Of a stretch of 64,000 bases of DNA, positions 2,011 through 57,010 are shown piece after piece (the stretch's first letter is position 1; the number at the start of each line of letters is the position of its first letter). Both the position numbers and the translations under genes were made by a program. The stretch is taken from assembly GCA_004213885.1 (NCBI GenBank), contig SGYL01000001.1, positions 62,001 to 126,000 of the forward strand. Reading direction: 5' to 3'. Below the pieces are notes generated by a model. That model was not told where the DNA came from. It did no database searches and was given only the letters and a program-made list of their open reading frames with translations. Origin of the DNA: Alphaproteobacteria bacterium. Its GTDB lineage: Bacteria; Pseudomonadota; Alphaproteobacteria; Puniceispirillales; Marisalimonadaceae.

Positions 2011-2030
2011 ATGGGGAATAAATTCCCCAT
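2011..2030. repeat. inverted repeat with 9-base arms before the 127-aa gene
   Basis: ATGGGGAAT and ATTCCCCAT form perfect 9-base arms around a 2-base centre. The GGGG/CCCC core stands out in such AT-rich sequence. It lies between the tiny ORF and the 127-aa gene on the minus strand. No T-tract follows on that strand, so it is more likely an operator or RNA element than a simple terminator. Confidence 0.5.
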
Positions 2031-2046
2031 ATTAATTTTAAGTTTG

Positions 2047-2075
2047 CACTTTCCTATATTTGACTATAGGAAGTG
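2047..2075 (-). repeat. hairpin overlapping the stop of the tiny ORF
   Basis: CACTTTCCTATA and TATAGGAAGTG pair with a single bulged base around a 6-base loop. Read on the minus strand, the stem starts inside the last codons of the 15-codon ORF and continues past its stop. A ribosome finishing the ORF would melt the stem, which is the geometry seen in attenuators. No poly-U follows directly, so a termination role is not shown. Confidence 0.5.
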
Positions 2076-2101
2076 GTAACTAATAAAATTATATTAGACA
2101 T
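2054..2101 (-). CDS. 15-codon ORF with near-consensus Shine-Dalgarno (possible leader peptide)
   Basis: An ATG at 2101 opens a frame encoding MSNIILLVTTSYSQI and ending in TAG. Upstream on the minus strand is AAGGAGGTGGTC, which matches the full anti-Shine-Dalgarno complement at 11 of 12 positions with ideal spacing. In this window only strongly expressed genes such as hup and the btuB-like gene carry a site of this kind. The peptide is hydrophobic and rich in Ile, Leu, Val and Thr, a bias seen in leader peptides of ilv and thr operons, but the downstream gene is not a recognisable biosynthetic gene. The start and ribosome site are seen directly; function as a leader or a tiny membrane peptide is inference. 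Confidence 0.5.
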   Translation of the reverse strand: MSNIILLVTTSYSQI

Positions 2102-2125
2102 AGACCACCTCCTTTCTAAAGTTAA

Positions 2126-2148
2126 ATTATTTTAGAGACTAAAATAAT
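2126..2148. repeat. perfect 10-base-arm inverted repeat upstream of the tiny ORF
   Basis: ATTATTTTAG, a 3-base loop, then CTAAAATAAT. It lies about 25 bases upstream of the tiny ORF start on the minus strand and could be the 5' hairpin of its transcript or a dimer-binding operator. From here to about 2361 I see no gene, only AT-rich sequence. Confidence 0.5.
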
Positions 2149-5418: not shown

Positions 5419-6870
5419 TTATATTAGAATTTTCCCTGGGTTCATAATATTTTTTGGATCAATCATATTTTTTATATTTTTCATTAAATCATATGCTACT
5501 GGGTCTTTAAAAAATCTTAGATTATCTTTTTTTAATTGTCCAATGCCATGTTCTGCAGAAAAAGATCCATTTAATTTTTCAATAATTTTATAGATGTTTT
5601 CAGTTATATTTTGTGATTGGTTTTCAAATCCATCATCTCCTTTGCCATTCCCAAATATATTGTAATGCAAGTTTCCATCCCCCAAATGACCAAAGAAAAT
5701 TGTTCTTGTATTTTTTATTTTTGTGGAGATCATTTTTTGAGTTTCTTGATGAAATTTTTCTATATTATTTATTGGCAAAGAAATATCATGTTTAAGACAT
5801 TTTTTGGCATGAGAATTTATTAATTCTTTTTTTTCATTTTCAGCGGCATTTTCTCTAATTTCCCATAATTTATTTCTTTCTAAGTCATTTTTACAAATTA
5901 TTGCATCCTCAATCCATTCTTCATCTAATGCTTTTGATAGAAGATGTTCAAGTTTTTCGTGCAGAAATGTTGTCCCTTCGTTATTGACCAAAGTATCATT
6001 TGTAGATGTTGTTGTTAATTCTAACAAAACGCCCATTTCGGGCATTTTGTTAAATGGAAGTGACAAGTTTTTTGTATTATTTGATGCCACTTCCCAAAAA
6101 ACTTTTGGCATAAGTTCAAACGCTTCCAGTTCGTTTTTTAATTCTTGTTCAAAAAGGTTCAAAAGTTTTATTGCATTATTTATTGAGAGCGTTTCAACAA
6201 AAGAAGTAATACTTAATTTTGATTTTGGAAATAATTTCATGGTAGCAGCTGTAATTATTCCAAGAGTTCCTTCAGCGCCAATAAAAATATTTTTCAAATC
6301 GTAACCAGTGTTATCTTTTTTAAGTATTTTTAACAAGTCCATTATATCACCGTTAGGTAAAACAACTTCTAAACCTAAACATAGATCTCTTGTGTTGCCA
6401 TATTTTAAGACATTTATACCCCCAGCATTTGTAGATAAGTTTCCACCAATTGTACATGAGCCTTTAGCTCCTAAACTAAGTGGGAAAAAAAGACCATTCT
6501 TTTCAACTTGTTCATGAATGATACTTAAAATAACTCCTGGTTCTAAAGTTATTGTCATTGATTCTTTATCTATAGCAATAATATTATTCATTTTTTCAGT
6601 ACTTATAATAATTGAAAAAGAATTTTTAAGAGGGGTTGCACCACCACAAAGGCTTGTATTTCCTCCTTGGGGAACAATTGAAATTTCATTATCATTAGCA
6701 AACTTTAAAATCTTTGATACTTCATATTTATCATGAGGTTTTAAAATTGCTATTGCATCTCCAATATACTGTTCTCTCCAATCTTTGGTATATTTAAGAT
6801 GATCTTCAATATCAAAAATAGGTTTAGATTTTAAATTCAAAGAAGTTATTATTTTTTTATAATCATTCAT
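5419..6870 (-). CDS. FAD-linked D-2-hydroxyacid dehydrogenase (GlcD/D2HGDH family)
   Basis: A 483-residue flavoprotein of the VAO/PCMH fold. The N-terminal FAD-binding half contains VPQGGNTSLCGGATP near residue 68, TLEPGVI near residue 108 and LSTNAGGINVLKYGNTRD near residue 145. The C-terminal FAD-oxidase domain ends with FFGHLGDGNLHYN and AEHGIGQLKKD, which carry the metal- and substrate-binding histidines of this family. The full-length D2HGDH-like pattern suggests oxidation of D-2-hydroxyglutarate or D-lactate, passing electrons to an electron-transfer flavoprotein or quinone. It overlaps the CysQ-Sua5 gene by 8 bases, so the two are probably co-transcribed. The exact substrate is not shown. 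Confidence 0.85.
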   Translation of the reverse strand: MNDYKKIITSLNLKSKPIFDIEDHLKYTKDWREQYIGDAIAILKPHDKYEVSKILKFANDNEISIVPQGGNTSLCGGATPLKNSFSIIISTEKMNNIIAIDKESMTITLEPGVILSIIHEQVEKNGLFFPLSLGAKGSCTIGGNLSTNAGGINVLKYGNTRDLCLGLEVVLPNGDIMDLLKILKKDNTGYDLKNIFIGAEGTLGIITAATMKLFPKSKLSITSFVETLSINNAIKLLNLFEQELKNELEAFELMPKVFWEVASNNTKNLSLPFNKMPEMGVLLELTTTSTNDTLVNNEGTTFLHEKLEHLLSKALDEEWIEDAIICKNDLERNKLWEIRENAAENEKKELINSHAKKCLKHDISLPINNIEKFHQETQKMISTKIKNTRTIFFGHLGDGNLHYNIFGNGKGDDGFENQSQNITENIYKIIEKLNGSFSAEHGIGQLKKDNLRFFKDPVAYDLMKNIKNMIDPKNIMNPGKILI

Positions 6871-8638
6871 TAAAAGATGCTCTTTTTAATCTATCATTTA
6901 AAGCCTTTCCAATTCCTATGCTTGGAATAGGTAAAACTTGAATAAATTTTAAGTCTAATTTATCTAAATACCTTAACCCTTCATAAAGTAAATGGGAAGC
7001 CTCAAATAAATTTTCAGATAAGCTTAAATTGAAAATATGTTTACAATTTTTAAAAGCTATTGGAAGTTTGCCAAAACTTAAACAAGCTGAACCAGTTATA
7101 TATTTTTTTTGGTTTAATAAAACTTTAGTTTTAGGAGCATAATGTTTTTGTAACATGCCAGGCGATATTAATTCATCTGAGAAATTTTTATTTGTTACTT
7201 TAATACCCAAAACGTCTTCTATGTTTTTTAGTGTAATAAATCCCTCTCTTAAAATTACAGGAAGTTCATTTCTACAATCCAAAACTGATGATTCAATACC
7301 AACTTCACACCCATTAAAATCTAAAATATCAGAAATTTCCCAAGTTGGGCCATGTAATTTTTTAAAGTCTTGTTTCACATGTTCAGCAGAAGTTGGGCTA
7401 ATGCCTCCAGATTTATTTGCACTAGGCGCTAAAATAGGGAGTTCACATTTTGATATTAAGTCTAAAGCTACTGGATGAGAAGGAATTCTTACTGCAAGTG
7501 TATTTTTTCCTCTTGATAAAGTTTTTGAAAATCGATTTTTTTCATTAACATTTAGAACCATTGTTAAAGGACCAGGCCAAAAATTAGCAGCGAGTCTATT
7601 AGCTAGATCTGTAAAAATTACATATTTTTTTACTTGCTCTAGGGAAGAAAAATGTGCAATTAGTGGATTGTTTTGTGGTCTATTTTTTGCTGCATAAATT
7701 GCAGAGATAGCGTTTTCACTAGTGCCGATGGCTCCCAATCCAAAAACTGTTTCAGTAGGGAAAACAACAAGTTTTCCATTTTTTAAGGAGCTTGATGCAG
7801 TTTCAATTCTTTTTAAATAAAACTTATAATCTTCAATATTTTCTAAAAAATATTTGGATAATGGAAAGTTTTTATAATTACTAAAAGCTATGAAGTTATC
7901 ATTTTTAAAATGATTTTTCCCATAATATAATTCTAATCCGTTAATAGTAAAAATATTACCGCCACTTGCTTTTAAAATACTATGTCCTGCAGCTGTGTCC
8001 CACTCCATTGTTGGTATCGATCTTGGGTAAATATCATACTTACCCTCCGCAAGATAACAAAATTTAAGACTTGATCCTATATGTGAAATTTTTAATGGAT
8101 TAATCACATTTAGCCAATTTTTTATACCTGATTTTAAGTTTGTAGAACTACAAATCATATTGAGTTTATTGTAATTTATAGTTTTAGGTTGTAATTCTTT
8201 AGCATCTAAAATGTTATATGTTTTTTTAATTTTATATGCTTTATTATTGTTGTTAAACCAAACAGAAGAAGTTGTTGGTTGACATATAATTCCAAAAACA
8301 GGTTTGTTATTTGATATTAATGCAAAATTAATTGTAAAAAAACCACTTTTAGTTATGAATTCTTTAGTCCCATCTATAGGATCAATAAGCCAATATTTAG
8401 TCATATCAACTTCATTTAAATTAGTTATGTTTTCCTCAGATATTATTTTATCATTAGGAAACATTTCAGAAAGTTTATTAGTTGCGATTCTACTAATTTC
8501 TAAATCAGCTTTTGTTACAGGTGAGTTATCATCTTTAATAGATACTTCAAGTTTTTTTTGTTTATAAAAAGTTAATGCAACAGCACTGCATTCTTCAATT
8601 ATTTTGATAATGTTTTTGATTTCTTCGTATTTAATCAT
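6863..8638 (-). CDS. fusion of CysQ-type 3'(2'),5'-bisphosphate nucleotidase and Sua5 threonylcarbamoyl-AMP synthase
   Basis: One 591-residue frame carries two enzymes. Residues 1-265 are an inositol-monophosphatase-family domain of the CysQ type, with the metal motif DPIDGTKEF near residue 86 and WDTAAGHS near 213; CysQ hydrolyses adenosine 3',5'-bisphosphate from sulfate assimilation. Residues about 275-591 are Sua5/YrdC, with KNGKLVVFPTETVFGLGA near 286, KNRPQNNPL and APSANKSGG, plus the Sua5 C-terminal signature SPGMLQKHYAP; this enzyme makes threonylcarbamoyl-AMP for tRNA t6A37. No methionine lies between the domains, so no separate ATG start is available. The gene overlaps its upstream and downstream neighbours by 8 bases each. 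A real fusion is the simplest reading. Confidence 0.85.
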   Translation of the reverse strand: MIKYEEIKNIIKIIEECSAVALTFYKQKKLEVSIKDDNSPVTKADLEISRIATNKLSEMFPNDKIISEENITNLNEVDMTKYWLIDPIDGTKEFITKSGFFTINFALISNNKPVFGIICQPTTSSVWFNNNNKAYKIKKTYNILDAKELQPKTINYNKLNMICSSTNLKSGIKNWLNVINPLKISHIGSSLKFCYLAEGKYDIYPRSIPTMEWDTAAGHSILKASGGNIFTINGLELYYGKNHFKNDNFIAFSNYKNFPLSKYFLENIEDYKFYLKRIETASSSLKNGKLVVFPTETVFGLGAIGTSENAISAIYAAKNRPQNNPLIAHFSSLEQVKKYVIFTDLANRLAANFWPGPLTMVLNVNEKNRFSKTLSRGKNTLAVRIPSHPVALDLISKCELPILAPSANKSGGISPTSAEHVKQDFKKLHGPTWEISDILDFNGCEVGIESSVLDCRNELPVILREGFITLKNIEDVLGIKVTNKNFSDELISPGMLQKHYAPKTKVLLNQKKYITGSACLSFGKLPIAFKNCKHIFNLSLSENLFEASHLLYEGLRYLDKLDLKFIQVLPIPSIGIGKALNDRLKRASFNE

Positions 8639-56760: not shown

Positions 56761-56805
56761 AATTTTATTTACTTTTTAAATCTTATATATTTATAATTAA
56801 CTAAT

Positions 56806-57010
56806 GTATAGGTGCTTTGAACTTATGTTCAAGCTTAAAATGGGAAATTGGTAATGTCATTGACGAAGCCAATACTGTACCCGCAACTGTATGTGAAGCG
56901 TTAAAACAAAAACCACTGAGCAATCGGGAAGGTGTTTTAACTGGATCACAAGTCAGGAGACCTGCCTTACATTGTCGCTTATTAAATTGTCGGGATAACA
57001 ATTTATGCGT
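56806..57010 (+). ncRNA. cobalamin (B12) riboswitch
   Basis: Conserved blocks appear in order: GGGAAATTGGT (56842), GACGAAGCC (56862), ACCCGCAACTGT (56879), CCACTG with CGGGAAGG (56916 to 56933) and the B12 box AGTCAGGAGACCTGCC (56951-56966). P5 can form from ATAC and GTAT around TGTACCCGCAACT. A 7-bp hairpin AAATTGT/ACAATTT at 56984-57004 shows loop CGGGATA, whose CGGG can pair with CCCG in loop L5, the L5-L13 kissing pair known for this class. No poly-U terminator follows, so control of translation is more likely. It lies in front of the btuB-like gene; two small ORFs inside it are artefacts. Confidence 0.95.

Follow-up and report, generated by a model that had tools for sequence, protein, structure and literature searches.

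A small-RNA gene with an extended Shine–Dalgarno site in a SAR116 bacterium and its relation to the CC2171 family

A compact unit on the minus strand

On the minus strand of the window (the whole stretch of 64,000 nucleotides analyzed here, 28% GC), a short unit opens with an exceptionally long Shine–Dalgarno (SD) site, AGAAAGGAGGTGGTCT (2117-2102), a 16-bp complement, G.U pairing included, of the 3' tail of 16S rRNA. With the tail GGAUCACCUCCUUUCU, as read in a same-genus SAR116 genome, the site pairs over 16 bp at -26.3 kcal/mol, when the best of the 58 window ORFs of at least 100 aa reaches -12.7 kcal/mol and their median is -3.8 kcal/mol. The first-pass annotation, made from the letters alone, had pointed here to a near-perfect ribosome site, matched at 11 of 12 bases and an outlier in its genome; both observations hold, the single mismatch being a G.U wobble. 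The sequence AAAGGAGGTGGTCTATG occurs exactly once and, with up to three mismatches, gives 2 matches against 0.07 expected, and chance is not a reasonable explanation for the site. Its core, AAAGGAGGTG[AG]TC, is the signature of the family described below.

The site is followed by a 15-codon ORF, MSNIILLVTTSYSQI, which starts with the ATG at 2101 and ends with a TAG at 2054, and whose frame is conserved when its amino acids are not. Upstream, promoter-like hexamers (TTAATA-17-TAAAAT, 2157-2129) match at 9 of 12 positions, a weak score at about chance level for the region; their position agrees with the layout of the family, where a TTGAA-N17-like promoter lies some 45-50 nt before the SD, and the transcript is predicted to start at about 2122. 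The ORF and the three inverted repeats listed by the annotation are all present on the minus strand. The first of these, ATTATTTTAG-TCT-CTAAAATAAT (2148-2126, 10-bp arms at 2148-2139 and 2135-2126), overlaps the -10 hexamer at 2134-2129 and is kept within the genus and absent from the wider family. The second forms a hairpin over the stop codon, with arms CACTTCCTATA (2075-2065) and TATAGGAAAGTG (2058-2047) and one bulged A. The third, with arms ATGGGGAAT and ATTCCCCAT (2030-2011), lies within a terminator-like hairpin, TATGGGGAATTTATTCCCCATG followed by the short and weak T tail ATTTTGAATA (2031-2010), which has the form of a terminator (0.0 expected by shuffling) and is conserved at loci L002-L007.

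The 118-nt RNA of the window folds better than 200 of 200 shuffled sequences (z = -3.9). Its predicted fold, together with covariation across the family, supports a helix, P1, between codons 3-6 (AATATAATTTTA, 2095-2084) and a segment immediately 5' of the terminator hairpin (TAAAATTAATAT, 2040-2029); in the window, this helix is A+T-rich and weak (-3.0 kcal/mol as a duplex). The ORF also contains an internal anti-SD, ACCACTTCCT (2077-2068), which can form 10 bp, one of them G.U, with AGGAGGTGGT at 2113-2104 (z = -4.1) and which the hairpin over the stop codon is predicted to be able to sequester.

The annotation staked its proposal on conservation of the ORF, the site, and the stems in close relatives, and seven same-genus SAR116 genomes do keep the whole unit, at 83-96% identity. 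The name SAR116 comes from GTDB records of same-genus loci. Other SAR116 genera yield short matches to the SD and start, where the locus is unrelated and neither the ORF nor the hairpins are the same. About 15 nt past the terminator-like hairpin begins a 127-aa ORF (1995-1612, minus strand) with no obvious SD and no Pfam match; the order of the unit and this ORF is conserved in the same-genus genomes.

A class-wide family and its link to CC2171

Searching 84,980 named genomes for the pattern AAAGGAGGTGGTCN{1,2}ATGTC, which is silent on the presence of an ORF, returned at least 118 loci. Among the matches listed, about six fall outside the Alphaproteobacteria and the rest come from Sphingomonadales, Caulobacterales, Pelagibacterales, SAR116, Rhodospirillales, and other groups of the class; every alphaproteobacterial locus among them carries an ORF of 15-33 codons, except one in Skermanella (56 aa). 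In SAR116, Sphingomonadales, Caulobacterales, and Pelagibacterales, a genome has about one copy of the signature; reversing the pattern as a control gave 0 matches, and the exact pattern was not found in about 136 other proteobacterial genomes. At the family loci inspected, a terminator hairpin follows and a promoter-like TTGAA often precedes the SD by about 45-50 nt. Different orders have no neighboring genes in common, and the next downstream ORF lies about equally on the same strand (61 loci) and on the opposite one (43), which argues for a free-standing gene.

As a measure of prevalence, the exact pattern AAGGAGGTGGTCN{1,3}ATGTC (13 of 377 good genomes) proved misleading, since it passes over the many members with GGTGATC and GTG starts, and it was replaced by two covariance models, R1, built from an alignment (A1) of 49 MSHC-type members, and R2, built from 32 diverse members; neither model includes the SAR116 family of the window (f1). 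The search with R1 recovered GTG-start members with AAAGGAGGTGATCCA. With R2, matches at E<=1e-4 were found in 109 of the 377 good alphaproteobacterial genomes, nearly all with exactly one; within the order of the window, 27 of 38 good genomes were matched, and, when all 387 genomes searched are counted by genus, so were 86 of 264 genera. The Rfam model RF01867 (CC2171), for its part, matches 56 of 250 genomes at E<=0.001 and only 9 of 250 over the Rfam cut-off, so that the family appears several times commoner than this cut-off shows. Two copies per genome were seen in Sphingomonas montanisoli (L062 and L165) and in the genome G446, and one elsewhere; at one locus, less than 0.5 kb separates the member from an SRP RNA gene (L187:974-1070).

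The link to CC2171, for which Landt 2008 is said to be the source, comes from members that the Rfam model itself recognizes: L184, L191, L193, L197, and L200 pass its cut-off of 75 bits, Sphingomonas-type members score 62-73 bits, below it, and other classes 30-54. Family and Rfam entry have in common the 5' block (consensus GAAAGGAGGUGAUCCAGUGUCUCAUuGuC), the helix P1 (CAUUGUC/GACAAUG), and the terminator. They differ in that CC2171 has the Rfam type "Gene; sRNA" and is treated as non-coding, and in that its description holds neither the ORF, nor the full complementarity to the 16S tail, nor the SAR116/Pelagibacterales branch. Indeed, the RF01867 model misses the window copy: in the genome of the window, it has no match at E<=1 or E<=0.001, and the nearest relatives also fall below the cut-off. 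That copy is nevertheless the sole match in its genome of both R1 (E=5.3e-5) and R2 (31.7 bits, E=5.6e-6), the match being carried mainly by the SD/start block. The 5' block of RF01867, GAAAGGAGGUG[AG]UC and then [AG]UGUC, is found exactly at 2116-2097, a P1 of the RF01867 type (codons 3-6 with the pre-terminator segment) is predicted, and the terminator hairpin is present directly after it.

Taken by its sequence, the unit (minus strand, from about 2122 to about 2010) is thus a free-standing small-RNA gene and a divergent representative of a family that spans the Alphaproteobacteria and has the CC2171 sRNAs as its canonical members. Genes of this family are laid out as a 5' complement of the 16S tail, then a start codon, an ORF usually of 15-36 codons, P1, and a terminator hairpin. 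The RNA family is a known one, of which the window copy forms a new, diverged branch. Neither this class-wide family nor its link to CC2171 was visible to the first-pass annotation, whose interpretation is partly supported. Two other identities were considered and rejected. Meyer 2009 (PMC2704228) described four candidate motifs in Pelagibacter, none of which is this RNA to judge by their text description and by negative Rfam matches; a partial 16S fragment is ruled out since similarity of the plus strand to the 16S end extends over no more than about 14 nt, and since other copies of the unit come with the ORF, P1, and terminator. As for earlier work, Rfam 15 uses CC2171/RF01867 and reports one further covarying pair (PMC11701678), and a Mesorhizobium survey assigns MH_s33 to CC2171 and gives 215 nt for its RNA-seq product (PMC5596092). 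The literature found gives no function for CC2171, and a search by sequence and keyword, in which subscription journals are poorly covered, found no description of the ORF.

Frame, peptide, and fold across the family

Among 189 members, the start is ATG in 158, GTG in 28, and TTG in 3, with no other codon at this position, the loci fetched by pattern or by R1 being biased to ATG; all three stops are used (TGA 90, TAA 69, TAG 30). From the test of the frame, the part concerning stops located before the terminator was left out, as it is circular through the filter. The amino acids tell another story. Over 139 close pairs, which are not independent, differences are spread evenly over the three codon positions (346, 358, 291), single changes are synonymous at a fraction of 0.257, versus 0.255 under neutrality, and no purifying selection on amino acids was detected; peptides of different classes have only their initial MS/VS in common. 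With frame and ends kept when amino acids drift, an sRNA catalogued as non-coding looks like a mini-mRNA, and these patterns suggest that the act of translation may matter where the peptide does not. Of the "highly translated micropeptide" proposed by the annotation, the translation is therefore supported by the conserved start, stop, and frame, whereas the functional peptide is not borne out. In the Skermanella-type lineage (L130 and L243), the ORF is longer (56 aa, MSHGAKPVIA...ACPSHTTHS) and signal-peptide-like, and the mini-ORF may there have grown into a real small protein.

Compensatory changes, of the kind for which the annotation proposed to look, are found in P1. On alignment A3, its covariation is 0.537 versus 0.205 in shuffled alignments (sd 0.025; 0 of 500 as high), and slid partners reach at most 0.127; for 22 members with distinct 5' strands, swapped pairing equals or beats the cognate one in 0 of 10,000 permutations. 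The paired strands are indeed as diverse as CATTGTC/GACAATG, CATGGT/ACCATG, CATGAAT/ATTCATG, and AGTGAT/ATCAC, with the strands given above in the window. In the common predicted form, the 5' site is followed by a long rod starting at codon 3 and by the terminator directly after it, part of the SD being paired in several members; the sequence of the rod is not conserved between orders. A conserved switch in which the internal anti-SD sequesters the SD was considered and set aside: striking in the window, the complementarity is weak across the family against control probes (z -0.71 for the own SD vs. -0.44 for the reversed probe, paired p=0.08), and is at this level suggestive only. A recurrent apical hairpin, GGAG-CA[AG]C-CTTC, lies inside the ORF (peptide ..EQPS/EQPL) of L214, L222, L223, L231, L235, and the SAR116 g2 loci, and is a possible second conserved RNA element.

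What looks new here is the conservation of start, stop, and frame, the strong covariation of a helix, and the neutral peptide in an RNA catalogued as non-coding, and, on comparative grounds, the CC2171 family needs to be re-read as translated: it appears to be a conserved mini-mRNA with nearly the strongest ribosome site that an organism can encode. In Caulobacter, Schrader 2014 (PMC4117421) reports that most ncRNA regions are untranslated, although 2 of 27 earlier ncRNAs are translated, and that 75% of genes have no SD.

Proposed capture of ribosomes and rival readings

The best explanation, to which we give a probability of about one half, is that the RNA of the window and of its family is a mini-mRNA that would capture ribosomes. 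Its 5' site would recruit 30S subunits very tightly, initiation and elongation would unfold the rod and P1, as well as the internal anti-SD hairpin in the case of the window, and the ribosome would leave at a stop inside the rod, upon which the RNA would refold. Ribosome occupancy would thereby determine how the RNA folds and how long it lasts, and the RNA could sense or buffer free ribosomes, the output being the RNA or the bound ribosome rather than the peptide. Against this explanation count the lack of an RF01867 match in the genome of the window, the R1/R2 match there being mainly one of the SD/start block, the weakness of P1 in the window, the weak family-wide enrichment of the internal anti-SD, and the untranslated state of most Caulobacter ncRNA regions in Schrader 2014 (PMC4117421). 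In Staphylococcus aureus, cryo-EM showed that an extended SD-aSD helix guides initiation (PMC13009471), and such pairing can therefore be productive. A bolder and more tentative version is that CC2171-type RNAs form a dedicated alphaproteobacterial class, translated only for the act of translation, which, by a near-complete duplex with the 16S tail, would occupy 30S subunits or count them, and would report or buffer ribosome availability. If ribosome capture were genuine, it would give bacteria an RNA-based sensor or buffer of free ribosomes, and this could be directly tested in Caulobacter, where most genes have no SD (PMC4117421).

Several other readings compete with ribosome capture. The RNA might be a non-coding, trans-acting sRNA with an incidental ORF, the GGAGG block being a seed for anti-SDs, either the 16S tail without initiation or sRNAs with a CCUCC loop such as ar14. 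Anti-SD sRNAs of the ar14 type are, like the CC2171-like family, alphaproteobacterial small RNAs built around SD/anti-SD pairing; unlike them, the family carries an SD rather than an anti-SD alone, as well as a start codon and an ORF. The Rfam type, the invariant single-stranded block that coincides with the SD, and an ar14 gene convergent with one member (L059:3157-3276) speak for this reading, but ar14 lies nearby at that locus alone among 18 scanned at the gathering threshold, and the start is restricted to ATG, GTG, or TTG at a fixed distance, with three stops in use and the frame kept, which makes it rather unlikely. An RNA that is translated and also base-pairs with mRNAs through its rod or the 3' strand of P1, at an availability gated by translation, is likewise improbable: these parts and the terminator resemble those of trans-acting sRNAs, and internal CCUCC/CUUC segments, which translation would expose, could target SDs, yet no common target is visible, because the rod is not conserved between orders.

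Less probable still is the leader-peptide attenuator proposed by the annotation, here of the 127-aa ORF. The proximity of this ORF, its lack of an obvious SD, the weak T tail of the hairpin, and a gene order kept within the genus would fit, and amino-acid leader attenuators such as the alphaproteobacterial trpL likewise combine a strong SD before a short ORF with alternative hairpins and a terminator. Elsewhere in the class, however, the same unit stands free, with promoter-like sequences and a strong terminator of its own and unrelated neighbors in both orientations, and has neither a regulated gene conserved downstream of it in the same orientation nor conserved regulatory codons in its peptide. 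Least probable, and very much so, is a functional micropeptide: the strong SD, the conserved frame, and the longer Skermanella-type ORF would agree with it, but neutral drift and the dissimilarity of peptides between classes stand against it.

Other features of the window were noted in passing. The minus strand encodes a 62-aa Cys-rich, zinc-ribbon-like small protein with weak Pfam matches only (2602-2790) and a 591-aa ORF (6863-8638) that by eye is a putative fusion of CysQ/inositol-monophosphatase-like and Sua5/YrdC-like parts, and the plus strand carries a Cobalamin riboswitch (Rfam RF00174, 92 bits) at 56792-56983.
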